Shown one piece after another: positions 1,905 to 32,800 of a stretch of 64,000 nt of DNA. The stretch's first letter is position 1, and the number at the start of each line of letters is the position of its first letter. The stretch covers positions 124,001-188,000 of the forward strand of contig CANMSA010000010.1 of assembly GCA_947500385.1 (NCBI GenBank), given 5' to 3'. The translations under genes and the position numbers were made by a program. Under the pieces are notes generated by a model, which saw nothing but the letters and a program-made list of their open reading frames with translations, searched no databases and had not been told where the DNA came from. Source of the stretch: an uncultured Flavobacteriaceae bacterium. Its GTDB lineage: Bacteria > Bacteroidota > Bacteroidia > Flavobacteriales > Flavobacteriaceae.

Positions 1905-2144
1905 TCACAAATACGATCTCGGCCATTGATTGGCGATATGATATCCCCACACGGATATTTCCAACGCCCCGAAGAGCCAAACCAATTCCTTGATGAAGGG
2001 AATGCCGACCAAAATGAAAAGAAAGAGCAACAACGGGATTCTCAAGAAACGCTTGAACCTGAGCAATCCTTTTAAAATGATGACCGTGAAAAGGATAAAA
2101 CCCAGAAAGGGCAACTTTTGATAAAGAATTTCAAGAGATAACAT
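1905..2144 (-). CDS. Small membrane protein at the end of the PRTRC operon
   Basis: A 79-residue protein with two strongly hydrophobic stretches, around residues 12-27 (LGFILFTVIILKGLL) and 35-57 (IPLLLFLFILVGIPFIKELVWLF), separated by a short basic loop, RFKRFLR. Two membrane segments are likely. It lies 32 bases downstream of the ThiF-like gene on the same strand and so is probably co-transcribed as the last gene of the leftward string. I do not recognise a family. It is supported as real by the clear membrane pattern and tight spacing. Confidence 0.55.
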   Translation of the reverse strand: MLSLEILYQKLPFLGFILFTVIILKGLLRFKRFLRIPLLLFLFILVGIPFIKELVWLFGALEISVWGYHIANQWPRSYL

Positions 2145-2176
2145 ATGCTTGGTTTTATTGTGGCTTAATATATAAA

Positions 2177-2956
2177 TTAGACCCCGATCGAGTTTACCTT
2201 GCCCGATTCCAAATTCACAAATGCCCCGTGCTTCTGGATTTGCTTATGGTACAACAACCGAAACAGACAATCGGAGGCATGGGCCACCAAGACATCGTTG
2301 ATAAACAGGGACTGTTCTTGCAACTTGTCGGAGTAAGCGCATCCCGCCCCCTGTAAGGTCGGGGTATCCTGCGCTTCCAAGTCGGGAAAAAAGTCGATAA
2401 TGTTCCTCAGGTCATCCACCATTTCAAAATCCTCCCGTTCCATTTTTCGCTCCGTATCGAACAATGTCCCTAAAACAAACTGTCCCGTGTTCCTAGCGTT
2501 CCCCAAATCCAGCCAGTAGTATCGCTTCTTGTCATCGGAACGGGTATAATGTTGTCGTACCGATTGTGCCAGTTGGATGCGAAAACGGGCATCGTCAACG
2601 CAAGTAATAATGATGTTTGCAAGCAGATCTGCTCCTTCTGGCAAGGCGTCCATCGGAATCCCACGCCATTGTAGCCCAAAGGCCATATTGACCTTACCTA
2701 CGGCATTGACCACTTTGTATTCCCCGATATCCGATACCGTATACAATTGCCGTCCTATGTTGTTCGGCTCGACGGTATCGGAATCATAGGCCGTGACGTG
2801 CAAGCCCGGATGTCCCGTTTGCCGTAGGGCATAATCCATCCTTGCCAATCTTGCGAGCATCAAGGAGCCTGTTCCACCGACCCCTATCAACACCACCGTA
2901 ATGGGATGGGTCGGGTTATAGAAATAGTTGTGGGCAAAATGTATACTTGGTTTCAT
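2177..2956 (-). CDS. PRTRC system ThiF-family (E1-like) protein
   Basis: A 259-residue Rossmann-fold adenylating-enzyme relative. The nucleotide-binding glycine motif GVGGTG is at residues 25-30, followed by LARMDYALR and the acidic strand VTAYDSDTVEPNNIGRQ, where Asp, Asn and Arg match the ATP site of ThiF, MoeB and E1 enzymes. A second acidic strand reads ITCVDDARFR. There is no pair of CxxC zinc motifs. A cysteine in QGAGCAYSD (about residue 207) is the only obvious candidate for a thioester residue, which is inference. It is the ThiF-related member after which PRTRC cassettes (ParB-related, ThiF-related cassette) are named. It lies between the B protein gene and the small membrane protein gene. 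Confidence 0.85.
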   Translation of the reverse strand: MKPSIHFAHNYFYNPTHPITVVLIGVGGTGSLMLARLARMDYALRQTGHPGLHVTAYDSDTVEPNNIGRQLYTVSDIGEYKVVNAVGKVNMAFGLQWRGIPMDALPEGADLLANIIITCVDDARFRIQLAQSVRQHYTRSDDKKRYYWLDLGNARNTGQFVLGTLFDTERKMEREDFEMVDDLRNIIDFFPDLEAQDTPTLQGAGCAYSDKLQEQSLFINDVLVAHASDCLFRLLYHKQIQKHGAFVNLESGKVNSIGV

Positions 2957-3026
2957 CTATGGTTTTTTATTGTTTTCATAGGTCAGATGTAATTCGCCAT
3001 TTCATGAAACGGACAAATCCAAACAT

Positions 3027-3743
3027 CTATCTATGGCTCATTTCATACAATTGGTTTAAGGTCAATTTATTGGGGATCAATAGGTCATCGTCAAATGACA
3101 GCTTCTCAAAATTTTGCTCCATTACCTTTACGATATTCCCATCTACCAATCGGTTATGGTGCGTTTCGGTGAAAATAGAGCGAAAAAACTGTTGTTCCAC
3201 AAACCCCATAACATCCTCGTAGTATTCAAAACCCTCATAATCCATTGCGGCATTTCCCATACACACATTCCCCTGCCTGCCGATATTCAGCAAGGGGGCA
3301 TGGTACAAGGGGGTGTCGTCCGTTAGCACATCCTTTCGGTTCAGGGCGAATACCTTTAAGGCATTGCCGTTCAATTTAAAAAGCAACTTGGGAAGCGGAT
3401 ATTTCCCCGATGGGAATCCCGTTTTGTCGTCGAAATAGAGCATCCGTTGTTCGGGATGTAGGTACCATATCAGTTGGAGATTACCCTTAAAATCGAAATG
3501 TATCAGGTTCTTCGGGAGCATTCCCTTAAAGCGGAACTTAAGTAGATTCCCCTCTAGGCAGCTAAAGATGTTTCGGGCAGTGTCCTTGGTCAAGGGCATC
3601 CCTGCGGTCAATTTTGTACCTGCTACCTCGTGGTACAAAAAGTAATGGTCGTTGCGATAGTTCTCGTCTTCCCGTTCATATCCGATGATCGCGAATTTTG
3701 GCAGAAAATGATCTTGGGCGTTCAATACGGCTATTCGTTCCAT
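3027..3743 (-). CDS. PRTRC system protein B (E2-like)
   Basis: A 238-residue protein matching what I know of PRTRC protein B. That family has been grouped with predicted prokaryotic E2-like (ubiquitin-conjugating-type) proteins. The segment HAPLLNIGRQGNVCMGNA (about residues 148-165) resembles the E2 active-site region, with the His before the strand and Cys161 in the NVCMGN motif. The Cys as a catalytic residue is inference. The start at 3743 is 3 bases from the stop of the F-protein gene, so the two are translated from one message. A gap of 70 bases separates its end from the ThiF-like gene. Confidence 0.8.
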   Translation of the reverse strand: MERIAVLNAQDHFLPKFAIIGYEREDENYRNDHYFLYHEVAGTKLTAGMPLTKDTARNIFSCLEGNLLKFRFKGMLPKNLIHFDFKGNLQLIWYLHPEQRMLYFDDKTGFPSGKYPLPKLLFKLNGNALKVFALNRKDVLTDDTPLYHAPLLNIGRQGNVCMGNAAMDYEGFEYYEDVMGFVEQQFFRSIFTETHHNRLVDGNIVKVMEQNFEKLSFDDDLLIPNKLTLNQLYEMSHR

Positions 3744-3746
3744 GTA

Positions 3747-4787
3747 CTAGAGTTTATTTAAGAGTTCGCTCAGGTCTGTGATAAATGCCTCCAATCGGTG
3801 CAATCGGCGGGGTATGCCATCATAGAACGGTCGAATGTTTCCCTTTTCGGCAATGGTATGTTGATAGGCGGAAACTAGGTCATCATCGTTGGCGCAGTCG
3901 TTCAGCATTTGGATGTATCCGTTGGCGAATACACTATCGGTACTATCGACTACCTGAAACAACTCTGAATGTTCGAACATACAGTCGTACCCGTCCTTTA
4001 CGCTCAGCAAGAACGGCACCTGAAAATCGATGGTTTCCGCCTTTAGCAACAATTCCTTGATGCGTTTGTAAATCGGCTTTTTGGGGCGGTATTTGTCCAA
4101 CAGGGTTTTCCAGTCCCTCATTTCATAGGTTTCCAAAAAGTTCTTGTTCTGAGTATAGAAGGTGGCCGAATGGTCCCGGACGATCTCTTTGTCGTCCTTC
4201 TGACATTCCAAATCCTCGAAGAGCCATTCCCATAGCCAATCGATCCTTGATTCACCGTTTGGGAACAGTCCACCGTAGGGCAGACTTTTGACGAAGGACA
4301 GCAGAATGTGAAAGAGGGGTCGGTTTCGATGCCTTAGTCCCATAATCGGACGGACGGGAATAAAGTACACCGTACTTCGGTTGCCGATGAACTTTTTCAA
4401 TAGCAACCTTAAGTTTCCATCGTCTCTAAGAACTTCGATATGGTCGATATTGCCCATAGTCCTCAACCTATGGGTACACCGCAGCACTACATCGTCCAAA
4501 CTATCGGTTGGCGTACATTCCCAATGGTCGATGCTGCCCGTAAACGTTCGGGTAACGGCTACCATCAATTGGGTAAGTTCCCCCATATCGACTTCGTATT
4601 CCTCGCTTACCAAGGGTTGAAAAAGAACGGGCAACAGGTTTATGTCAGAAATGGAAAAACCTTGGGTTGCAGCACCTTCGGTCTTTGCGTTCCACGTTGG
4701 TAATGTTTCTGCTCTACCGCCCGAAACAGTCGGTCGTGGAACGTTGTTAAATCTCTTGGGGGTGTCAATCTGTATGTCGGCTTGCAT
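3747..4787 (-). CDS. PRTRC system protein F-like
   Basis: A 346-residue protein in the place of PRTRC protein F, between C and B. The N-terminal 45 residues are polar and probably disordered; after that the protein is mixed alpha/beta with no membrane segment and no catalytic motif I recognise. Features include RDDGNLRLLLKKFIGN, YFIPVRPIMGLRHRN and a C-terminal helix ending in LSELLNKL. Assignment rests mainly on gene order plus general resemblance to F proteins, so it is less certain than for B, C and the ThiF-like protein. Its function is unknown. Confidence 0.6.
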   Translation of the reverse strand: MQADIQIDTPKRFNNVPRPTVSGGRAETLPTWNAKTEGAATQGFSISDINLLPVLFQPLVSEEYEVDMGELTQLMVAVTRTFTGSIDHWECTPTDSLDDVVLRCTHRLRTMGNIDHIEVLRDDGNLRLLLKKFIGNRSTVYFIPVRPIMGLRHRNRPLFHILLSFVKSLPYGGLFPNGESRIDWLWEWLFEDLECQKDDKEIVRDHSATFYTQNKNFLETYEMRDWKTLLDKYRPKKPIYKRIKELLLKAETIDFQVPFLLSVKDGYDCMFEHSELFQVVDSTDSVFANGYIQMLNDCANDDDLVSAYQHTIAEKGNIRPFYDGIPRRLHRLEAFITDLSELLNKL

Positions 4788-4823
4788 TGGTCTTGTTTTA
4801 AAAATTCGTCTACGTCCATGGTG

Positions 4824-5039
4824 CTATCCCTTTGTTCCCGCTACGGTCTTGAAATGGATTTCATGATGACCGTTTACGATGCCCTTGTCCATAATGTGGG
4901 CATTGGTCAGTTCCGCATATAGCTGTGCATAGTGTTCCATGACCTGCTCATGGGTCAGGTTGTGATCGATGTCGTCCAACTCAATGGAGGTGTTGCCGTT
5001 TTGGTACACGTAGATTCGGGTTATGGCAGCTACTTCCAT
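4824..5039 (-). CDS. PRTRC system protein C (ubiquitin-like)
   Basis: A 71-residue protein of the PRTRC C type, a family grouped with prokaryotic ubiquitin-like beta-grasp proteins. Strands ITRIYVYQ, TSIELDDI and HEIHFKTV fit the small beta-grasp outline with one central helix (THEQVMEHYAQLYAEL). The C-terminus ends AGTKG, with a terminal glycine as expected for a protein activated by an E1-like partner. Only one final Gly is present, not Gly-Gly. The start codon overlaps the end of the E gene at 5039. The ThiF-like and B proteins encoded downstream are its natural partners, which is inference from the cassette. Confidence 0.8.
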   Translation of the reverse strand: MEVAAITRIYVYQNGNTSIELDDIDHNLTHEQVMEHYAQLYAELTNAHIMDKGIVNGHHEIHFKTVAGTKG

Positions 5040-5527
5040 CAGTTGAATAGTTGGGGGTTATCGTATGCTTTCATTTCCTTGATGACCTTCTGCGCCTCCT
5101 TATGGTCAGGGTCGCTCTTTAAGATCTCGTTGGCGATGTCCGTTGCTTTTTTATGGTCTTGCATGGGGTTAAAGCCCTTCTCCTTTAAAAGTTTCCTTAA
5201 CGCGCTCACTTTTTTGGAAGCGGTCTCTTTTTGCTTTTTGGCCAGTTGGGTCTTTTCTTCGGTTTCCCGTAACGACTTTTCAAAGGCGACCGTGTTCTTG
5301 AAAAGGGTATTGGTCCGTTCCAATGGTCTTTGAAGGATTTGGAAGAATTGTTCGTCCACTTCCGTAATGGTTCCCCTTAGGGTCAACGGTTTCAGGGTTT
5401 GGAGCGCCTTGTCCTTGGCCCTTGTTTTGGGAAGTACGGATACGCTGACCGTATCATCATCGAACAGGATACTGATGCCGTACCCTTCAATGCCCATCTG
5501 TTTCAAGTTCGAAAAAAAACTGCTCAT
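5039..5527 (-). CDS. PRTRC system protein E
   Basis: The open frame reaches back to 5656, but I choose ATG 5527, giving MSSFFSNLKQMGIEGYG, which is how E proteins usually begin; the longer form would add an unlikely cysteine- and tryptophan-bearing leader. The protein then has 162 residues. The N-terminal half (about 1-75) is beta-rich with SILFDDDTVSVSVLPK and LTLRGTITEVDEQFF. The second half is a long charged helix, KSLRETEEKTQLAKKQ, and a basic region ending in a tetratricopeptide-like SDPDHKEAQKVIKEM. It is the first PRTRC gene of the string and overlaps the C gene by one base. Function unknown. Confidence 0.75.
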   Translation of the reverse strand: MSSFFSNLKQMGIEGYGISILFDDDTVSVSVLPKTRAKDKALQTLKPLTLRGTITEVDEQFFQILQRPLERTNTLFKNTVAFEKSLRETEEKTQLAKKQKETASKKVSALRKLLKEKGFNPMQDHKKATDIANEILKSDPDHKEAQKVIKEMKAYDNPQLFN

Positions 5528-5655
5528 CTTGAAGAGGTATTTGCTTGTTATACAATCACTTAACTTACCTTCAAGATACGCCCAAACCTTCGAAAATCCC
5601 CATAAAACAACGGATAACACCACCCCTGACTTCTTCTTTCCCTCTCCACAAAACA

Positions 5656-5670
5656 CGCCCCGAAGGGGCG
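5656..5670 (-). terminator. Short GC hairpin downstream of the methylase/helicase gene
   Basis: CGCCCC and GGGGCG pair around a GAA loop. Read on the - strand the hairpin is followed by TGTTTTG, a weak T run. It lies in the 279-base gap between the stop of the large methylase/helicase gene and the chosen start of the PRTRC E gene. It may reduce read-through between them, so the PRTRC genes could have a promoter of their own in this gap. I see no clear TAnnTTTG box there. Confidence 0.35.
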
Positions 5671-5806
5671 CTGGAACAGCTGTTCGTAGTACAAAGGCGC
5701 GGTGTTTTTAAGTATGGAGAAGCTGCGGGAACCTTGTTAAGACCAGTTGTGGAGTATGCCCAATAGCAAAAGTTCGAGCCGGCAAGGGCATTGTGTTCGA
5801 ATCATT

Positions 5807-8800
5807 TTAAATCGCCCGTTTCCGTTTGAGCGTTTTGATTTCATTTTTGAGCAGCTGCATCTTTGCCATTTTCTCCTCAGGGAAGCCCAAGGCCGTTTTC
5901 TTGCGATGGGTTTCCAATGTGCGTAGGTTATAATCCAAATCGAATTTTTTTGATTTGATTTCATGCGCAACCTTTTGACATAACTTGATAAGTTGCAGGG
6001 CCACTTTCTCTGGGTCGAAACGCTGCTGTTTTCTACCGGAAACGTGTATGTTTTTAAATTCCAACCGAAAGGCGTAAAGGTAATTCTCGTTGGAAGGCAC
6101 ATAGTCCGCCTGAAAGGCCAGGTTGGCATTAAGTGAGGGAATATGCAGGACCCGCTTGTGTTTTTGAACGTTGAGATTTAGTTTTGAACGTTCTGCGATG
6201 GCCAGCCCCAGATGCTTGATAAATTCTTTGGGTGTCTTGGTCATGAGTACTTTGGATTCCAAAAGGGAATTCGAGATCAGCTGTGCCAATCCTTCTTTTA
6301 GTGTTGATAGGTCCTCAAATGCACTTTCCTCCATCGGCAAGTGGAACCCTTTGATCGTCTTCTGTGCACTTTCCAGTTCTACCAGTTGGGAAACAATCTG
6401 TTTGTTCTCCTTTTCGATGCGTTCAACGGCCTTAAAGGAATTGGCCTTGTTTAGTTCGTGCAATCGTTTCTGGGACTGTAAAAACTTGAGATCGTCGGAA
6501 AGCTTTACCAATTGAAACTGGTCCATGTCCCCGATGAGGGCCGCCTGCATCTGCTCGTAGGAAAGGCTCTTGTCATCGGGGACCAGGTCATCATAAATGC
6601 GTTTGTTCGGGTCGGCCTCCCGAATCTGCTCCCGAAACTTTTGCTTATGGGTATTGAGCGAATAGGAAAAGATATCCGTCGAATCCTTTATCCCATAGAA
6701 GCGTTCCACCACGGTATTGCCATACAGTTGCGCCACTTCGTTGCCCTTTCGCAGACCGCGTCCGGCCCGTTGGTCAAAAGCATCGGGGGAATAGGGAATA
6801 TCCATATGGAAGATGCCGACCACCCTTTTTTGAATGTTGGTACCTGTACCCAAAACCTGGGTGCTTCCCAACGCCACACGAATTGTACCGTTGCGAATTT
6901 TTTCCTGCATTTGGTCCGTTCGGTTCTTTACTTTTTCAGCTTGGGCCAAAGCAATTTCATCTGCCGGGATGCCATGGTCCTCCTGAAGTATTTCGCGTAC
7001 GGTATCATAGGAATTGTATTGGCTTGGTTTCCAAACGTTCAGGTCGGAGAACACCAAGCACACCCCTTTGTGTTCCGATGTTTTATTGTAAAGTTCGGCG
7101 ACATCGCGACACAACCGTTGCAATTTGAACTGGTCGGTTTCCGAAAAATCAATGGCCATGTTGTCCTTGGCCAACGGATCGATCAAAAGCGAACGATTGA
7201 TGTTTAATGCGGTGATATGTGCGGACTTCATTTGCTCGTTATCGTAAACGGGCAACTTGAAAAGTACGTTTTGGTTGCGGTTTTTGGTAAACTCCAAAGA
7301 AGCCTGCTTGAGTGCTTCGAAGGCCGGGGTGGACTCCAAAATGACAAACTCCCGGTCGACCTTAAGGTCGTGGGTCTTGAAGTGCTTGTCGCGGCAGATG
7401 TGGGTAAAGGAATTATACATCTTGCTGAGTTCAGGAAGGTTGGTATAGTACCGAAAACGGGCATGCATCCTGGGATCACCGAAAATATTGGGCTCTATGC
7501 TGACACTTTGCTTTAAGAATATGGAGGCCCAGGCATCGAAATTAAAGATGTTCTTACGTTTCAGTGCCGTTGGTGTCAAATACCGTTGATAGGCATAGAG
7601 TTCGGTAACCGAGTTCTTCAAGGGCGTGCCGCTGTAAAAAAAGACATTGGTATCCGTTCCCATCCGCGCATGGACGGATTTGATACTGATTTCGAGATCG
7701 AGGTTCCGTTGGCTGTCCGAATGGTTGTTGAGCCCTGAAACATGCTGATGCCGCGTTGTAAAACCGATATTCTTGAAGTAATGCGCCTCGTCGATCATCA
7801 GGGCCTCGATACGCAGATCGCTCAAAGTGGTCTCGGATTCCGTTGCACGTTCTTTCAACTTTTTTAGGGTGCCCTGCAGTTTGTCCTCCAAGTGTTCTTT
7901 TCTCTTGATAAGCCCTTTTATCAGTTTTTTGGATTCCTTAATCGTCCCGTATTCCCTGGCCGTTTGCAGATCTTGTTCGATCATATGGATTTTTTCTTCC
8001 AAGATCTCCAGTACGACCTTGCGCTGTTTCGGTAGTTGCTTTAAATGTCCATGTTCTGCGATGATCAGGTCAATGGCAGTATTGTTTTGTATCATTTGTA
8101 AGGTCTTGGACCGCTTGCTTTTGGCCATATTCTTGGAGCTCAATCGAAGAATGTTCAACTCCGGAAAATTTGCCCTGATTTCCGCTTCGATCTGTGGGGC
8201 CACACTTTTTAGCGTGAGCAACAGCGTACGCCTACTTTTCCCATGTTGTTTCAACTTATGGGCCAACATCGCCATGGAAAGGGTCTTCCCCTTCCCTACT
8301 TGATGGTCGTTCAAGGCACTCCCGTTGGTGAGGCCGAACAAGGTGGAATCGATTTGATGCGGATAGGGCGGGTACACCAAGGTCTCCGGAAAGGTGAGCC
8401 ACCCCTGGGGCACGCTGGTATTGACGTCGACCAAAAAAGCTTGGTAGTAGTTTTCCTCAATGGTAGCTTTCAATTCTTGATGCCCCTCGATAAAGGATTT
8501 AAAATGGAGCTGTAGTTCCTCGTACAGATTCTGAGCCATCAAGGTGGCATCCTTATCCAGCTTTCTGATGGTCTTTCCGGAGCGGTCCTTATACGAGGTG
8601 AAGATGACAGGATACCGGTTTTCCGCAAAATGCTGCAATATCCGTTTGTAACCCGCCTTGACCTCCTGATGCAAGACCACGCTGAATCGTTCGTGGGCCT
8701 CCGGGTTATAGTCCCTTGGAAATAGCAATGTTAAGGTCGAATTGAACTGGCCTACATTGATTTGCACTTTTTCGTTGATGAGTTCAGCTAAAAAAGATTC

Positions 8801-10813
8801 TTTCGCGACGATCGGGATAAAATGGCTTTCGAAATTGAATTCGATATCGTGCAGGTCCAATTTCACGGGCAGCAGTTCTGATAAGGCCTGGAGCATTTTC
8901 TCCGATGCGATTCCGTAGGGCAGCGGATGCCGCTTCACGTATGCGATCTTATCTTGGATATGGCCACTGGAAAATTGAAAATAGGGAACCGTTCTATAAC
9001 CGGTCTCGGATTTGGAATCGGGTTCCAGAAAAAAGGAACGGGTTTCGAGCCCGGTCAACAACAGTTCTTTTTCAGTGGTCTTGAAGGTCTCCGCGATTTC
9101 CCCGATATCGATTCGTCCTTTCCGGTCGAACTGGTAGCGTACCATTTCCTCGGGATGTCCGAATTCTTGTGTATCTGCCGGAGTAGGTAGTGGCGTCTGG
9201 GTTTCCGGGGTTGGTTCGGGTACCGCGTCTACAGCTTGTCGTAGTAAAAATCGTTGCAGGGTAAACTCGGGGTTTTTACCATACCCCTGGCCTTCCTGTT
9301 TTTGTTCCAACTGTTGACGGACCTGCTCAAAGTAATGATCCTCTTTCAGAAATATCAGATGCCCCTTCAAGGGTCCCCATTTGAAATGGAACGTATCCAA
9401 TTGGTAATCGATATCCGCAAAACGTTGGGCGATATTCTTTTCCGAAATTCGGCCTTTTTGGATATTCAGGTCCAAAAGCACCAAATCGTTTCGCATTCGG
9501 ACATAATCCTGTATAAGCTCCCTGATCTTGTTCGGCACCTTTCTAACACTATGAGGATCTGTATAAAAAAGCACAGCTCCCTTTTTGTCGAAGTTATAGC
9601 TGCCAAAAAACAAGCGGGTAAATTGTTTGGTATCCGCATCGTGCAATGCTATAGGTACGGAACCAACTTCCAATTCAGAGAGCGGTGCTGCAGCGGTTTT
9701 CTCCTTTTCGGGTGCTGAAGCTTCGGGAACGGTTTCTCGAACTTTTTCAATAGTTCCGGGTGCAGCAATTTGTTCAAAATCACAGCTATTGGCCTGCCGT
9801 TCCAAAAACTCGTTCAGAGGTGTGCCGTCAGGTTCAATAACCATACTCGGCCGGTTATGAAAAAAACCCAGTTTTGGTACACCGTTAACCTGTTCGCCAT
9901 TCGTTTTAAAGAACCGGTTCGTAAGAAATTCTTGGCCGTCCAATGCAATGGTATCGGTTTCGACAAATTGTATTTCACTTTCGGAAAGAACGCTTTTGTT
10001 CGATGTCTTTCGATACAACAATAGGTCCGAAACAACTTTGGTTCCTTCTTTGGAGAACAAATCGGTATTGAAACGATTGGCCAAAAGCAAATCGTTTTCG
10101 AATAAAATCCTTTGTCTGAAATCAGCGTAGGCACTTCGTTCAGAAAAGGCCGAAGAGGTGATTAAAGCTGTAATACCGCCTTGTCCGACCATTTTAGGGG
10201 CGAAAACATTGAAATAGTTACCGACGTTCTTAAGCGGACCTTCCGTTAGATAATCGTGTTGATAGGCCTTGGTAATCGGAATATCCCCGAATGGAATATT
10301 GGTCATGACCAAATCGAATTGTCCCTGCTTGTCATAGTTTAAATAGTAGTCTTCGAATGGGATGTTGAGAACGGTTACGTTATCACTACTTACATTGTTG
10401 GCCTTCAGTATTTCAAAGGATAGGATATCCGGTTCCAAAGCGGTAATCTGAGCATTGGGGAAAGCTTTTTTCAGTTGCTGAACGTAAGCCCCGTTTCCTG
10501 CTGAAGGTTCCAAAATGGTCTTTGGTTCAAAACCATTTTTTTTCAGCAGATTGATCTTATACTCGATGATAGCCTTTGGAGTATAATAGCTGGTAAGATG
10601 ATACCGTTTAAGGGAACTGAACATTTCCTTTGAAGTTTCCGGAAAAGCTTCTTCGATAGTTTGTAACAATTGTTCTCCTTCGCTCTTTTTTCCTTTTGGG
10701 GGATAGAACAACAGTTGTCCTAATTTGGACAGCCCTTGATTGTTGATGTAAAAATTTTCGGGGTTCGCCTCCTTGATTACTTTAATAATCCGGTTCAGAT
10801 GTTCTTCTTTCAT
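5807..10813 (-). CDS. N6-adenine DNA methylase fused to an SF2 helicase
   Basis: A 1668-residue protein. Residues 99-135 form an S-adenosylmethionine site (ILEPSAGNGAY at 100-110, then TALEPD), and TNIPFGD at 171-177 stands for the NPPY-type catalytic motif, here NIPF. A proline-rich linker with QTPLPTPAD separates this from the helicase half. The helicase has a Walker A, VGKGKT, near 837-842, DEAH in ALMIDEAHYFKN near 1005, SGTPLKN, and QRAGRGLRKG near 1347. A coiled, lysine-rich C-terminus follows. Such giant methylase/helicases travel with conjugative elements and phages; the P1 DarB protein is a known relative in architecture and acts against host restriction. A protective role during transfer is inference. 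It is 6 bases from the preceding gene. Confidence 0.85.
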   Translation of the reverse strand: MKEEHLNRIIKVIKEANPENFYINNQGLSKLGQLLFYPPKGKKSEGEQLLQTIEEAFPETSKEMFSSLKRYHLTSYYTPKAIIEYKINLLKKNGFEPKTILEPSAGNGAYVQQLKKAFPNAQITALEPDILSFEILKANNVSSDNVTVLNIPFEDYYLNYDKQGQFDLVMTNIPFGDIPITKAYQHDYLTEGPLKNVGNYFNVFAPKMVGQGGITALITSSAFSERSAYADFRQRILFENDLLLANRFNTDLFSKEGTKVVSDLLLYRKTSNKSVLSESEIQFVETDTIALDGQEFLTNRFFKTNGEQVNGVPKLGFFHNRPSMVIEPDGTPLNEFLERQANSCDFEQIAAPGTIEKVRETVPEASAPEKEKTAAAPLSELEVGSVPIALHDADTKQFTRLFFGSYNFDKKGAVLFYTDPHSVRKVPNKIRELIQDYVRMRNDLVLLDLNIQKGRISEKNIAQRFADIDYQLDTFHFKWGPLKGHLIFLKEDHYFEQVRQQLEQKQEGQGYGKNPEFTLQRFLLRQAVDAVPEPTPETQTPLPTPADTQEFGHPEEMVRYQFDRKGRIDIGEIAETFKTTEKELLLTGLETRSFFLEPDSKSETGYRTVPYFQFSSGHIQDKIAYVKRHPLPYGIASEKMLQALSELLPVKLDLHDIEFNFESHFIPIVAKESFLAELINEKVQINVGQFNSTLTLLFPRDYNPEAHERFSVVLHQEVKAGYKRILQHFAENRYPVIFTSYKDRSGKTIRKLDKDATLMAQNLYEELQLHFKSFIEGHQELKATIEENYYQAFLVDVNTSVPQGWLTFPETLVYPPYPHQIDSTLFGLTNGSALNDHQVGKGKTLSMAMLAHKLKQHGKSRRTLLLTLKSVAPQIEAEIRANFPELNILRLSSKNMAKSKRSKTLQMIQNNTAIDLIIAEHGHLKQLPKQRKVVLEILEEKIHMIEQDLQTAREYGTIKESKKLIKGLIKRKEHLEDKLQGTLKKLKERATESETTLSDLRIEALMIDEAHYFKNIGFTTRHQHVSGLNNHSDSQRNLDLEISIKSVHARMGTDTNVFFYSGTPLKNSVTELYAYQRYLTPTALKRKNIFNFDAWASIFLKQSVSIEPNIFGDPRMHARFRYYTNLPELSKMYNSFTHICRDKHFKTHDLKVDREFVILESTPAFEALKQASLEFTKNRNQNVLFKLPVYDNEQMKSAHITALNINRSLLIDPLAKDNMAIDFSETDQFKLQRLCRDVAELYNKTSEHKGVCLVFSDLNVWKPSQYNSYDTVREILQEDHGIPADEIALAQAEKVKNRTDQMQEKIRNGTIRVALGSTQVLGTGTNIQKRVVGIFHMDIPYSPDAFDQRAGRGLRKGNEVAQLYGNTVVERFYGIKDSTDIFSYSLNTHKQKFREQIREADPNKRIYDDLVPDDKSLSYEQMQAALIGDMDQFQLVKLSDDLKFLQSQKRLHELNKANSFKAVERIEKENKQIVSQLVELESAQKTIKGFHLPMEESAFEDLSTLKEGLAQLISNSLLESKVLMTKTPKEFIKHLGLAIAERSKLNLNVQKHKRVLHIPSLNANLAFQADYVPSNENYLYAFRLEFKNIHVSGRKQQRFDPEKVALQLIKLCQKVAHEIKSKKFDLDYNLRTLETHRKKTALGFPEEKMAKMQLLKNEIKTLKRKRAI

Positions 10814-27243: not shown

Positions 27244-28269
27244 ATGAAGATAAAGGAGCACATACACGTTTTTAAAAAATGGGTGGCCGGAAACCGAAAA
27301 ACGGCCATGGCCCTGCCGGTCATTTTGCTCTTGACCTGCTTTTTCGTCCTCGAAAATCTAAAGGATTTTAAAATGGGCGATAGTGGCGCGGCAAGCCTGA
27401 ACGGGTTCAATTCCGAACTACCGGGCGAGACACCGACCTTGGATTCGGATACCGCGGGCCGACAATGGAAGGGCAAGGATTCCTTGGTAAAAAATGAAGA
27501 GGATAATTCCGATGCTGGAATCGATATGAAGAATTTAGAACCTTCCGAAAACGACTCGCTTCAGCGAATTCTGGAACAATTGGAAGGACTGTCCATGAAA
27601 CCGAAAACCCGGGAAACCGTTAGGGCCGAAATTCCGGAAATTGCAACATCGGTCGTTGAAAAGCGGCCCGAAATGACCGAAGATGAAAAAAAACAACGCT
27701 TCGTGGAGAACCGCTTGGCCTATCGGGAAAAGCTTTTGGAAGGAAAGGAGAAAATGATGGGCGATTCCCAAAATAGCCAAGGCTACTCGTCCCAAGAGCC
27801 GATCGCTCATACCAAAAAACCAATTTCGGTCAGGGCTACCGTGTACGGCGACCAATTTATATTGCCCGATGAAAATGTCCGATTGCTGCTCATGGAAGAT
27901 ATGGTCCTGGAGAACAAAAGGTTCAAGAAGAATACGTTTATCTACGCCATGGCCTCCATAAAGGGGAACCGGGTGTTTCTGGACATCGACAATATCGAAC
28001 ACCGGCCCGTAAAATTATTGGTCAAAGACTTTAACGATGGACGGGAAGGCATTTATAGCACCAGGGCCGGGGAACTATGGCGGGAATATAAGGCCAATGC
28101 GGGCAACGATCTTCTTACCGGCGCTACCGAGGGGTTGACCAAGGGTTCCCCCGATTTGGTAACGGATGTCGTACGGGGATTGGGATCTTTCTTTCGCAAG
28201 AAAAAACTACGGGAAAAAGAAAAAATTCTTTTGATGGATGATTACGAACTTTTATTGGTATCGCAATGA
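27244..28269 (+). CDS. traM: TraM, VirB10-type protein
   Basis: ATG 27244 gives 341 residues starting MKIKEHIHVFKKW; an upstream in-frame ATG at 27199 lies inside traK and is less likely. A membrane span is at about 23-40 (MALPVILLLTCFFVLENL). A polar, probably disordered linker crosses the periplasm. The C-terminal domain holds the conserved ISVRATVYGDQFILPDENVR and IKGNRVFLDIDNI segments of TraM. VirB10-like proteins bridge inner and outer membrane. The stop overlaps traN by 4 bases (ATGA). Confidence 0.85.
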   Translation: MKIKEHIHVFKKWVAGNRKTAMALPVILLLTCFFVLENLKDFKMGDSGAASLNGFNSELPGETPTLDSDTAGRQWKGKDSLVKNEEDNSDAGIDMKNLEPSENDSLQRILEQLEGLSMKPKTRETVRAEIPEIATSVVEKRPEMTEDEKKQRFVENRLAYREKLLEGKEKMMGDSQNSQGYSSQEPIAHTKKPISVRATVYGDQFILPDENVRLLLMEDMVLENKRFKKNTFIYAMASIKGNRVFLDIDNIEHRPVKLLVKDFNDGREGIYSTRAGELWREYKANAGNDLLTGATEGLTKGSPDLVTDVVRGLGSFFRKKKLREKEKILLMDDYELLLVSQ

Positions 28270-29246
28270 AAATTCAAATTTTTTTACTATTTGTCTTTGC
28301 GCAAGGACTGTGTTCCCTAAGCGCGCAAACGGATACCATCCCGGTGTCCAAGAACTATAAGTCCATACTGGTCCTGCCGGAGATTTTTGATTTCTCCATC
28401 AACGGAAAGGAACTTAATTTTATCGAATCCTTCCCCGCCAAAAATGCGTCCGACAATGCGAAGCGTATCGTACTGCTCAGCTACAATGACGTGGCACCCG
28501 ACAGCGAAGATCATACCAATTATACGGTATATACCAAGGATGGACTGGCCTATGATTTTATCCTGAGACTGGTAGAAGTTCCCGAAAAGAAAAGGTGGTC
28601 GATCGACCGATCTATGGCCGAAAACCCGGAAGATTACCGAGCCCAGGATGAACCTTCTACTATCGACACTTCGGCAACCGGGCCGAAACCGTCCATGCAG
28701 CGTTCCAAGGTAGTCTCCACGACGGATGAAGATTTGGGAGTTACCTCGAAGGAACGGACCACTGATAAACCCTTGCCGCTGACCCGGGAACTTTATGTAC
28801 TCGACCGCATGGAATACGTTCGTCGGCGGTGTTATTATAACCAGTTCAACAAAGGTAGGATCATACGCTATTTCACCAAATACGGTGATGTGTTCCTATG
28901 GCTTGAAAATGTCTTTTATGAAAACGAGGAGCTATACCTACAGTTTCGTTTGGAGAACAAAGCGCATATGCCCTACGATGTGAATTTTCTCAAATTCAGG
29001 ATCGCCTCCAATTATGCGAACAGTCGGAACAACATCGACAAAAAACACGAGCCGCTGTTCCGGTACAAAGTGCCCAAAAGGGTCGAAGGGAATTCCGAGA
29101 ACTATTTCATGGTGGTCTTCGACAAGTTTACCTTGGACCGAAGGAAAGTACTAAGGGTCAACTTGGACGAGGACAAGGGCAACAGAAACCTTTCCTTGGA
29201 TATCGACCATAGTATTATCAATAACCCCTTTGCGTTTAAATTATGA
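28266..29246 (+). CDS. traN: TraN, VirB9-type protein
   Basis: A 326-residue secreted protein with a signal peptide (IQIFLLFVFAQGLCSLSAQ) and the DUF4138 outline: an N-terminal beta-rich domain with YKSILVLPEIFDFSINGKE, a polar linker at about 120-170, and a conserved C-terminal domain with VFLWLENVFYENEELYLQF and ENYFMVVFDKFTLD. It is the outer-membrane-associated VirB9 counterpart. It overlaps both traM and traO by 4 bases. Confidence 0.85.
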   Translation: MKIQIFLLFVFAQGLCSLSAQTDTIPVSKNYKSILVLPEIFDFSINGKELNFIESFPAKNASDNAKRIVLLSYNDVAPDSEDHTNYTVYTKDGLAYDFILRLVEVPEKKRWSIDRSMAENPEDYRAQDEPSTIDTSATGPKPSMQRSKVVSTTDEDLGVTSKERTTDKPLPLTRELYVLDRMEYVRRRCYYNQFNKGRIIRYFTKYGDVFLWLENVFYENEELYLQFRLENKAHMPYDVNFLKFRIASNYANSRNNIDKKHEPLFRYKVPKRVEGNSENYFMVVFDKFTLDRRKVLRVNLDEDKGNRNLSLDIDHSIINNPFAFKL

Positions 29247-29794
29247 GGAAAATCAATTTTCATTTAACGGTCTTGCTGCTGTTATCGGCATATTTTGGCT
29301 TTGGCCAACTGCGGGGCAACTTGGCCTCCTCGGTCGGTCTGAGCGGTGGCTATGTAGAAGATGGTTACGGTATCATGGGCACCTTCAATTTTCATCCCGA
29401 CCGGTACCGGTATTTTCAGATCAGCGTATTGGCCGCCATTGCGGAGGATAAAGGAAGTCAGGATATTCCCTACAATATCTTTACCATTCAACCGGGCATC
29501 TATTACCGGGTATTCGTTGCACCGCGCAAACGGAATTTCAGCCTGTTCCTGGGCGGGGGCGGACTCTTCGGATACGAGGTGATCAACAACGGCAACAATG
29601 AACTTCCCAACGGGGCCCTGATCAATGCCAAAAGCCAATTCGTCTATGGCCTTTATGTGGGGGCGGAAGCGGAAGTCGGCATCAGCAATGACTTTTCCTT
29701 GCTGATCAAAGCGAACGAATACTACCATATCAATTCCGATGTGGGGAATTTCTATCCATATGCCGGGATAGGCCTGCGCTATTTTTTGTTCTAA
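29243..29794 (+). CDS. traO: TraO, outer-membrane protein
   Basis: A 183-residue protein with a signal peptide (LTVLLLLSAYFGFGQ) and alternating beta strands ending in YAGIGLRYFLF, an aromatic C-terminus typical of outer-membrane barrels. The LFLGGGGLFGYEVINNG segment is characteristic of TraO from CTnDOT-type elements. It overlaps traN by 4 bases and is the last standard tra gene before the giant TraQ-like lipoprotein. Confidence 0.85.
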   Translation: MRKINFHLTVLLLLSAYFGFGQLRGNLASSVGLSGGYVEDGYGIMGTFNFHPDRYRYFQISVLAAIAEDKGSQDIPYNIFTIQPGIYYRVFVAPRKRNFSLFLGGGGLFGYEVINNGNNELPNGALINAKSQFVYGLYVGAEAEVGISNDFSLLIKANEYYHINSDVGNFYPYAGIGLRYFLF

Positions 29795-29804
29795 AAACGA
29801 TTGT

Positions 29805-32800
29805 ATGAAACGAAATGCCACACAACGTATATTCGCGCTGACAACGCTAGGTTTAGCGCTGATATTGGCCTGCAGTAAGGATTTTGAGGATATCGTCGAA
29901 GATTCCTTCGACTTTAGCTTTGAAGCCTCCAACGAGGAGGACGGATTTGTGTTCGAAGGATCAAAAACGGATTTTGTCCTGGAACCGGAACGCAGGGTCT
30001 CCCATGTTTCCTATTTCATGAAATACCTGCATCTTGACGGAAAGGGATATTTCATTGGAGCCGAAAACGATACGGTCCGCGCCAACGATACGGTGCCGAT
30101 GCGGAACTTCAATCCATCATACCGATATATGCCCATCGATACGGGAATGCACAGGCTAAAGGTCTTGGCTTGGGATTCCAACAAAATCGAGAAAGAGCTG
30201 GAATTGTCCTACAACGTTAAGTATGCCAGCTTTAGCTTTCTTTTGGGCAAGGGTACCGATAACTTCATTATCAACGGCCGGAACCCAGTTATTGTAACCC
30301 TATTGCGGGATAAGAATACCGCAAGTCCGGAAGGGGAACCGTCCGGGGATTTCGAGATTACCTACCGCTTGGAAGATGGTTCGGGCAAACTCTTTTTGGG
30401 CGATACTTCCTACGAGGCCGGAATCCCTTTCCAATTGCCCAAAGGCGTTACGGAGTTGGGCTACCGACCGGAAACCTTGGGCGAGCATAAATTGACCATG
30501 ACGGCGAAGGCCCCCGATGGGGCCACCATTGCCAATGACCTCGTTCTCCAAGTCGGAAATGTCAATTTTACCTTTCGAACGACCGCCGCATCGTCACAGG
30601 TGGAACTCAACACCAATCTAGCGATAAACATCGACTTACAGACACAGGACGACCAAAGCGGGGTCACCTATGAAATAAGCCATGCCTTTGCACCGCGCAG
30701 TCAAGGGGACGGTACGGTCAGGGACCAGAATGGCGGGGTCATGGAACCGGGGACCAATAGGGGCATTGTACCCGGAAACTATAACTTCACTTTTCAGGAC
30801 AATGCACTGGGCCAACGCAAAATTTATTTCGACCTAAGGGATTCGAACGGTCAGATCAAGCGGGACAGCGTGGAGATCGAAGTCGCCAACATCCCGTTTA
30901 CCTTTTCGGGCAATTCCGAGAGCAACCAATTGTTCGTAAACCAACGGACACAGCTTAATTTCAATATTAAATCGAATGGTAACACCTCCAATATCGATTA
31001 CTTGCTAACCTATGACCTGGATCAGGGAAACGGCACCGTAACGGGGGTCAATGGCAACACGATCCGGAACAATACGGACTATCCCGTGGAACTGGGCAAT
31101 TTTCAATTGTTCTATACCCCGGAAACCTTAGGGGTCCATCAAATACGCTTTTTCGTAACGGACAATTTTGGGCAGGTGGTCGGGCCCGTTGAAATCGATT
31201 TGGAGGCAAAACAGCTGGAGCTCGAATTCAATGCCTCGGCCAATTCTAACGAGGTGCTGGTGGGGCAACGGGGCACTATAGCTTTGAGCCTTATCGAACG
31301 GGGGGATTATGATGGGGTATCCTATGAACTGAGCTATTTCATTTCCGGTGGGGATGCCGCGTTGCACAACGGGAATTCCCCGATCGTTCCCAGTCAATAT
31401 TTTTCGGTCGGTCCCGGAAGTTTTGCGTATGACTTTATCGCACAAGAGCCGGGAACCTATGAGATCACTTTTTTGTTACGTGACAGCAATGGGCAGATTT
31501 TGGAGGAAAACGTTACGGTGGCGGTCGGTAACAACGACTTTACCGTTGACATGACCCCTGCGAAAGCAACGGAGTTTTCCAATGTGCCCGTGAACATCAT
31601 CGTCGCTATCGACGAAGTGCCCGAGGGAGCGAACGATACGTATACGGCCTTCTTCTCATCGAGCCAAAACGGTTCGTTGTCGGTCAATGGTATCGACTAC
31701 GGTCCGGGCGAAGAATTTCCGTTGGGTGCCGGGGCCAACAATCTTACCTATACGGGATTGGAACCGGGCCAGCACAACCTCGTCCTCAGCGTTGAATCGG
31801 GTTCCGATGTGACCCGGACCGCGAATGCGAACATTTCTTTCGATCAGGTCGATTTTAGCTTTACGGGCGGCACCCAAAAATCGGGGATAACGGTCGGCGA
31901 GACCACTTCCCTGAATTTCAATATTTCAGAAAGTGTGGGGTCCTCCGACTATACCATGCGCTTCACAATGAACGGGAACGCCACCCTTACCGATGGCAAT
32001 GGTAATGCGGTAAGCCCGGGAAACAGCTATGAGGTAAATACCGGCAACTTTAATTGGACCTTGGAAGGTACCGACGAGGGTACCGTAAAAATGGTCTTTT
32101 TCGTTCTAAACGAAACGGGCCTTGAGAAAGCCGTGGACATTTCGATAAACGTTGCCGCCAAAGATTACACCTTCAATGCGTCCGCTACGTTGCAAAGGGC
32201 GTACACCGATGAACCGGTCGATATGAACTTCAACATCTCTGAAATTGGGATCGGTGGGGATACCTATGAGATGTATTTTTCGTCCAGTGGGAACAACGGT
32301 AGTTTTGAATATGGAGGGGCGACCTATTCGCCGGGCGAAAGCTTTTCCGTTCCGGTCGGTGCTTTTTCCGGAAAGTATCGGGGGCTGACGGAAGGAAACC
32401 ACAATGTGGTATTTACCGTACGTTCTTCTTCGGGGGTGGAAAAGACGGGGCAAGTGAACATTGTTTTTGAAACGTATACGGAAGATTTTGACCTGATCGT
32501 AAGCCAAGCCCCTGGACAGCGTTTACAGGGTGAGGAATTCAACATCGCCATTATATTGAACGCCTTGGAAACGCACGACCCTTCGGTCACCTATCAAATG
32601 ACCTTTGGGTTCAGCGGGAACCGGGCCGGGTACTTCTTCTACAACGGTACTCGCTATGATGAGGGGCAGACCGTGCCCTTGGATTATGCCAGCACCAATT
32701 TGACCTTTTATCCGGAATCGGAAGAGCCCTTTACCATCGATTTTTCCGTCGAAAACTCGACCGGAGAGACCAACAACGGTAGCACTTTTGTGGACACGGT

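Follow-up and report, generated by a model that had tools for sequence, protein, structure and literature searches.

What does a set of genes resembling a small relative of the eukaryotic ubiquitin tagging machinery do inside a bacterial conjugative element? The question is raised by a 64,000-nucleotide stretch of DNA from an uncultured Flavobacteriaceae bacterium (the window; bases 124001–188000 of a contig in a 6.03-Mb genome), in which an earlier note, made from the letters alone, had described a PRTRC-like cassette encoding a ubiquitin-like C protein, a ThiF/E1-like protein and an E2-like B protein together with E, F and a small membrane protein. All six open reading frames (ORFs) are present where that note placed them, on the minus strand, and run from position 5527 downward in the order E, C, F, B, ThiF and small hydrophobic protein, the start of the C gene overlapping the stop of the E gene by one base. 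The five genes that concern us most are the following:

5039..5527, minus strand: E protein, PRTRC_E family, 162 amino acids, matched by PF19556 and TIGR03741
4824..5039, minus strand: C protein, ubiquitin-like, 71 amino acids, ending in Gly71, matched by PF14454
3747..4787, minus strand: F-position protein, 346 amino acids, with no family or fold matched
3027..3743, minus strand: B protein, E2-like (Prok-E2_D), matched by PF14460, with Cys161
2177..2956, minus strand: ThiF/E1-like protein, 259 amino acids, above the cut-off of TIGR03736

Judged by the families of its proteins, the cassette probably carries out ubiquitin-like conjugation as such. We lean, with rather less confidence, toward a fuller account in which this pathway of E1, E2 and ubiquitin-like (Ubl) proteins is part of the conjugative-element backbone and serves the upkeep of plasmids and integrative and conjugative elements (ICEs).

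The cassette is a conserved unit. Using iterated profiles, we compared 34 loci, comprising the window's first 20 kb, six plasmid regions, seven genome loci and 20 Bacteroidota genome stretches. In all 25 Bacteroidota cassettes compared gene by gene (a set omitting L035, which lies at a contig end, L040, taken to be a near copy of L039, the broken L054, and the plasmid loci), E, C, F, B and ThiF lie on the same strand in the same order, with overlaps or gaps of less than 80 bases and one exception of 183. For the five proteins, pairwise distances are correlated with one another at 0.94–0.97, the observed value being reached by 0 of 500 permutations for every pair, although the correlation partly reflects common ancestry of whole elements. 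The ratio of nonsynonymous to synonymous substitution rates (dN/dS), taken between close relatives and the window copy, was 0.11–0.18 for E, 0.06–0.18 for C, 0.18–0.31 for F (the highest of the five), 0.08–0.12 for B (two pairs) and 0.07–0.15 for ThiF (four pairs); synonymously saturated pairs were not computable, and with many of the remaining dS values above 1 these ratios are rough. The five genes are maintained under purifying selection. The closest cassettes, from Euzebyella, Maribacter, Muricauda/Allomuricauda and Pricia, encode B proteins 73–87% identical to that of the window (7 loci); judging by these names, the host is probably a marine flavobacterium.

The ThiF/E1-like assignment was borne out by a score of 201.5 bits against TIGR03736 (PRTRC_ThiF; NCBI cut-off 144.75). 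The protein carries a glycine-rich ATP loop (G25xGGxG) together with D58, N66, R69, Q70, K81, D121 and Cys206. In the comparison of residue conservation, which covered 29 ThiF and 27 E proteins and additionally omitted L038 and L006, the loop and D58, N66, R69, Q70, K81, D121, R126, D150 and Cys206 are kept in 29 of 29 members; Cys206 is found in 33 of 37 alignment rows, the remaining four being gaps. A ThiF profile built from 8 members retrieved 44 PDB sequences at E ≤ 1e-5, including the E1s UBA6, UBA1, NAE, UBA5 and SAE2, bacterial ThiF, and Cap2.

The C protein is ubiquitin-like and ends in glycine, as had been read from the sequence: it scores 51.4 bits against PF14454 (Prok_Ub; cut-off 25), and its C terminus reads ...AGTKG followed by the stop. 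Against TIGR03738 (PRTRC_C) it reaches 37.5 bits, below the NCBI cut-off of 45.95. The ending KG-stop occurs in 32 of 32 C proteins found, that of the JAB-bearing system of EbN1 (Aromatoleum aromaticum plasmid 1, NC_006823) included, and because the gene ends at that glycine the residue is exposed without processing. A requirement for trimming of C by a JAB peptidase was rejected, since glycine stands directly before the stop in every one of these proteins. Among the lysine columns only K70, in the tail, is general; another column is lysine in 16 of 29 members and histidine in the window. Some lysine is nonetheless present in all 29 C proteins, so that a firm claim that C cannot form chains is untenable; the residue pattern leans slightly toward single tags rather than chains of C.

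The claim that B is E2-like draws on its Pfam family, on the motif at its active site and on its profile, which weakly matches a known E2. The protein scores 90.5 bits against PF14460 (Prok-E2_D; cut-off 25) and 87.1 bits, over most of the model length, against TIGR03737 (PRTRC_B), below the NCBI cut-off of 131.45; in the other Bacteroidota subtype the latter model was above cut-off in L046 (136.6) and below it in L004 (92.1). The motif, AP-LL-N153-I-xxx-G-x-V-C161-M-G, contains the NVCMGN in which the earlier note had seen an E2-type context for a cysteine. Cys161 is present in 35 of 36 alignment rows, the other being a gap, and most of the 31 aligned members have it surrounded by AP..N[IV]...G.[VI]C. 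An asparagine lies exactly eight residues before the cysteine in 29 of the 31, the exceptions being L004, with a spacing one residue shorter, and L006. The active-site cysteine and the asparagine of the HPN motif are the catalytic residues of the human E2 UBE2D2, and alignment of the B profile with UBE2D2 by hhalign places Cys161 on the former and N153 on the latter. The score of 21.2 exceeded those of all 200 shuffles (maximum 19.3).

The E protein was correctly named, scoring 80.7 bits against PF19556 (cut-off 26) and 49.7 against TIGR03741 (PRTRC_E; cut-off 37.95). These scans used a 205-amino-acid ORF (5039–5656) whose start is an upstream GTG; the start of E is the ATG at 5527, giving 162 amino acids, and all 27 E proteins share that methionine (M44 of the longer ORF). 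Two lysines are also conserved, K149 in 25 of 27 and K140 in 23 of 27 (numbering of the 205-amino-acid ORF). The F gene is likewise at the place the earlier note gave it, but its identity as PRTRC_F could not be shown: in the window's F family, none of the 25 members is matched at E ≤ 1 by the NCBI model TIGR03742, and hhalign gave this family a probability of 0.2% against four canonical F proteins and 4.4% against nine F-position proteins. As a control, the same model placed three of five proteobacterial F-position proteins above its cut-off and one below, and was silent on the fifth; it was also silent on the F-position proteins of both Bacteroidota plasmids (L003 and L004). The window's F-position protein has no Pfam, NCBIfam or PHROGs match at the limits used, and its AlphaFold model (25 sequences; predicted local distance difference test [pLDDT] 65.9, predicted template modeling score [pTM] 0.66) has no PDB match at E ≤ 0.001 by Foldseek. 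An identification with PRTRC_F is unsupported, and the name is positional only.

Neither a ParB-related member nor a JAB peptidase is encoded in the cassette, as the earlier note had remarked, but this is not peculiar to the window. PRTRC_A (TIGR03735), the JAB member, was found in 0 of 18 cassette-bearing Bacteroidota genomes; as a control, its model scored 267.3 bits in the EbN1 plasmid and was silent in four other records. PRTRC_parB (TIGR03734) was above cut-off in 0 of the 18. Matches to it below the cut-off, which look like ordinary ParB proteins, occur in 18 of 18 but, going by the listed coordinates, never within 56 kb of the cassette on the same contig, and the single one in the window's own genome lies on another contig (C12). 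On these counts, the lack of A and of a PRTRC-type ParB is usual in Bacteroidota and not special to the window. Prok-JAB (PF14464) matches were obtained in 5 of the 18 genomes, at six places, the nearest of them 22 kb from the cassette (G095, 32 bits) and the others further off or on different contigs; three coincide with places matched by RadC. RadC itself matched in all 18 genomes (32 places), in no case, by the same kind of coordinates, within 60 kb of the cassette on the same contig. Provision of a JAB protein elsewhere near the cassette was rejected on these distances; a RadC or JAB protein acting in trans is possible. Of 13 plasmid regions chosen from a spread listing of 39 plasmid records, 8 have a labeled ParB immediately ahead of the cassette and 5 have a labeled A; the two Bacteroidota plasmids among them have neither label. 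BLAST searches of plasmids with EbN1 queries returned 388 records for ThiF and 119 for A, and a cassette without A therefore appears common on plasmids, within the limits of BLAST.

That the cassette lies inside a conjugative element was confirmed by genes at 17–52 kb for a type IV coupling protein (T4CP), a TraG P-loop protein (VirB4), TrbL, DUF4138, TraQ and a tyrosine integrase. We surveyed the surroundings of 21 Bacteroidota cassettes (the 20 genome stretches, including the broken L054, plus the window) over up to about 30 kb per side where the contig allowed. A conjugation gene (TraG/VirB4, T4CP, TraM, TraN, TraJ or relaxase) occurs within 35 kb in 15 of the 21, and genes for single-stranded DNA-binding protein (SSB) and DUF932 lie a few kilobases upstream in 15 and 13 of the 21, respectively. 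Gene clusters that recur in 13 or more loci comprise the five members of the cassette plus SSB and DUF932. In a second subtype, which includes the window, a large gene takes the place of SSB/DUF932:

5807..10813, minus strand: helicase/methyltransferase-like protein, upstream, 1668 amino acids, with Helicase_C above cut-off and methyltransferase matches below

This helicase-like gene adjoins E in the window, L035, L036 and L041, where an M23 peptidase gene is also found upstream along with unnamed genes, and lies within 10 kb upstream of the cassette in L037–L040. Of 395 Bacteroidota genomes sampled, 15 carry Prok-E2_D; among 99 relatives 5 do, with the genome of the window included in each tally. 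The B query matched 39 of 72,556 plasmid records versus 1 of 50,697 phage records, and the ThiF query 2 of the 50,697; a phage origin was rejected on these counts. A rare phage case is a Burkholderia gladioli record (OK665841.1, 33 kb), where genes resembling B and ThiF, with one gene between them, follow the cassette-like order at 28159–30438. On a Virgibacillus plasmid, a dnaN (sliding clamp) gene (L006, 3714–4838) stands just before a distant B/ThiF cassette.

From these families and neighborhoods we infer the catalytic steps, the target and the purpose of the cassette as follows, the chemistry being that expected of the families. ThiF would bind ATP and adenylate the free C-terminal Gly71 of C; C would then move to Cys206 of ThiF as a thioester and on to Cys161 of B, whose asparagine eight residues earlier would occupy the position of the E2 catalytic asparagine. 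B would in turn transfer C onto a lysine in a protein that handles the element's DNA. Its conserved lysines put E first among the candidates for acceptor or adaptor, and the F-position protein is a candidate specificity subunit. With no JAB peptidase encoded in the cassette, the tag would likely be long-lived. The nearby partition genes in proteobacterial plasmids, and SSB/DUF932 or helicase genes in Bacteroidota, point to the element's own DNA business as the field of action. In its most specific form, the proposal is that a minimal, JAB-free Ubl pathway on the conjugative elements of Bacteroidota stably tags a handler of element DNA that is entering or being replicated (E, SSB or the DUF932 protein) in a SUMO-like manner, for upkeep and not immunity; in all its particulars this is speculative and unlikely to hold.

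A number of results weigh against this account. In a control with hhalign, 200 other ORFs from these loci were compared with the B profile, and two outscored the E2: ThiF of L004 (3679–4470; 30.6) and E of L052 (7243–8013; 21.6). Because the alignment with UBE2D2 beat all shuffles but these ORFs scored equally well, the predicted E2 link of B is clear at the level of the motif and weak as a whole-sequence match. Structure prediction, which the earlier note had proposed as a check on the E2 fold, yielded an ambiguous model of B (24 sequences; pLDDT 72.3, pTM 0.68): Foldseek found no PDB match at E ≤ 0.001, and the best-placed E2-type match was Ube2S (rank 9, E = 1.1), with the TSG101 UEV domain further down (ranks 42 and 46). 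Sequence profiles searched against the PDB returned two irrelevant matches at E ≤ 1 for whole B and none at E ≤ 10 for its core, one irrelevant match and no relative for C (E = 0.12), and likewise one irrelevant match and no relative for F (E = 0.51). The downstream histidine column of B is histidine in 20 of 31 members and glutamate or alanine in all eight window-type proteins. The window's B has E193 in this column, with His195-His196 two and three residues further on; this pair is present in 8 of 8 window-type proteins and may replace the downstream histidine. In the Virgibacillus cassette (L006), the most distant member, a histidine stands in place of the B asparagine and no C was identified. 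The 21 cassettes surveyed include six, a broken one among them, for which the sequence covered holds no conjugation gene, and the link from cassette to element upkeep is drawn only from gene neighborhood.

The same conjugation chemistry could instead serve conflict, tagging proteins of phages or rival plasmids (defense) or host defense proteins upon entry of the element (counter-defense). The bacterial E1/E2/Ubl systems of known role that we met are phage defenses, namely Cap2 of the cyclic oligonucleotide-based antiphage signaling system (CBASS) and, in the portions of the reports available, the ISG15-like Bil system (PMC10952713) and its enzymes (PMC11354881). ThiF matches the PADLOC E1-E2 models weakly (best 19.9 bits), the copy on a Pseudomonas nitroreducens plasmid lies near Shedu and Abi genes, and the window's element has MADS-like defense genes to the left of the cassette. 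This last set, with matches to mad2, mad5, mad6, mad7 and mad8, lies about 3–18 kb beyond the cassette, to the left of the window, and is probably cargo of the element. However, partition, SSB or DUF932 genes adjoin the cassette across phyla, an arrangement resembling backbone, and B, C, E and F are all without a PADLOC match at E ≤ 0.1. We therefore regard a role in conflict as rather unlikely, though it fares best among the alternatives to upkeep.

It is more doubtful still that C is a sulfur carrier of the ThiS/MoaD kind, in which case a C thiocarboxylate made by ThiF would feed a sulfur-using enzyme and B would be an acyl-transfer partner and not a ligase. ThiF does belong to the superfamily that activates ThiS and MoaD, and two of the 13 plasmid regions have a gene of the 3'-phosphoadenosine-5'-phosphosulfate (PAPS) reductase family close to the cassette, both proteobacterial (L005, 10670–12469; L072, 12970–14327). 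The tail of ThiS and MoaD is GG, whereas all 32 C proteins end in KG; moreover, a cysteine-bearing B accompanies C in 25 of 25 cassettes, and no sulfur enzyme is among the gene clusters common to at least 13 loci. Very improbable is a decaying or non-catalytic remnant, with genes that merely hitch-hike or form only a non-covalent complex, for although one cassette (L054) is broken into pieces and, unlike in close relatives, B and ThiF of the window copy are separated by a 77-nt insertion, dN/dS is well under 1 in all five genes and the catalytic residues are invariant across deep divergence.

Upkeep of the element by Ubl conjugation thus remains the account we prefer, and the rest of the locus can be described briefly. 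In the 7 close relatives the start of ThiF overlaps the end of B by 11 bases; the insertion that separates the two genes here (2955–3036) is absent from them and has 8-bp direct repeats on its flanks. Pieces of it recur elsewhere in the genome (contigs C4 and C2), and it may be a small mobile repeat. Beyond ThiF lies one further ORF of the set:

1905..2144, minus strand: small hydrophobic (membrane) protein, accessory and non-core, 79 amino acids

The ORF that the earlier note had counted with the cassette exists, but it is not a conserved partner and was rejected as a sixth core member, being detected in 4 of the 34 loci, a count to be read with the knowledge that a short hydrophobic protein can escape detection and that some loci end close by. 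Just downstream of the cassette, 819–1580 is what we take to be an IS5-like transposase gene. Between the helicase gene and E lies a GC-rich hairpin with a short T tract (5655–5671). In promoter and terminator scans, sites were no more frequent than in shuffled sequence, hairpins of the 5655–5671 type included, and the Bacteroidota-type promoter pattern had no match by the cassette.

The bacterial Ubl conjugation systems of known role met here act in phage defense, and the PRTRC-type cassette sits on hundreds of plasmids and also on conjugative elements. Its Bacteroidota form is simple (five genes, an exposed glycine and no peptidase), and is therefore a good test bed for the role of a minimal E1-E2-Ubl pathway in a mobile element. 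We found no functional study of a PRTRC-type cassette in the open-licence literature; in the parts available, three papers list or map PRTRC genes only (PMC10434189, PMC7466150 and PMC12420198), and two Rhizobium tropici papers were discarded as PRTRC literature, since their available text matches only through pRtrCIAT899c, the name of a plasmid, and through its sister plasmids.

Systems of this kind were predicted by Iyer et al. (2006; PMC1779556) as operon type 6d. The window's cassette shares with type 6d a small Ub-like protein with a conserved C-terminal glycine, an E1-like protein, an E2-like protein and an alpha-helical protein, and the available portion of the type 6d table names Bacteroides thetaiotaomicron among the hosts. 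In type 6d, a JAB gene, its product bearing an N-terminal domain, is fused or immediately adjacent and the downstream histidine is absolutely conserved (PMC1779556), whereas here there is no adjacent or fused JAB and the histidine is not absolute. BT2645–BT2649 of B. thetaiotaomicron are laid out similarly: the part of the listing available (PMC10434189) gives E, E2 family D and ThiF together with a hypothetical protein.

The EbN1 PRTRC system, ordered ParB-E-C-F-B-A-ThiF, is alike in its order E-C-F-B-ThiF, in its homologous C, B, ThiF and E proteins, in the same cysteine of B and of ThiF, and in a C protein that ends in GTKG as does that of the window. It differs in having ParB before E and, between B and ThiF, an A protein consisting of DUF2016 and Prok-JAB, a match to type 6d, in which the JAB has an N-terminal domain; neither is in the window's cassette. 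The EbN1 F protein scores 339 bits against PRTRC_F and is not recognizably related to the window's F-position protein. A Parabacteroides distasonis plasmid (NZ_OY725769) has, in the window's order, E, C, an unnamed protein in the F position, E2 family D and ThiF and, again as in the window, neither A nor ParB among the genes listed. Its B protein is 26% identical to that of the window and has SxFSH where the window type shows the shifted histidine pair.

Among defense systems, type II CBASS (Cap2/Cap3) has an E1 domain related to ThiF, and Cap2 chains match the ThiF profile. Cap2 is a fusion of E1 and E2, whereas these are separate genes in the window. The target of Cap2 is, in the accounts available, a nucleotide cyclase; none was noticed near the cassette, in annotations that involved no search aimed at cyclases. 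The Bil operon (BilABCD; PMC11354881) resembles the cassette in its separate Ubl, E2 and E1 genes and differs, in the available description, in that a JAB peptidase trims BilA, a two-domain Ubl, whereas the window's C is a single domain that already ends in glycine and has no JAB beside it. The kind of cassette is already known, with NCBI and Pfam models in existence and routine annotation. Because ParB and A are lacking and F is positional only, we file the window's set as a relative and not as a full PRTRC system: by its sequences, it is a five-gene, ParB-less and JAB-less cassette homologous to PRTRC B, C, E and ThiF.

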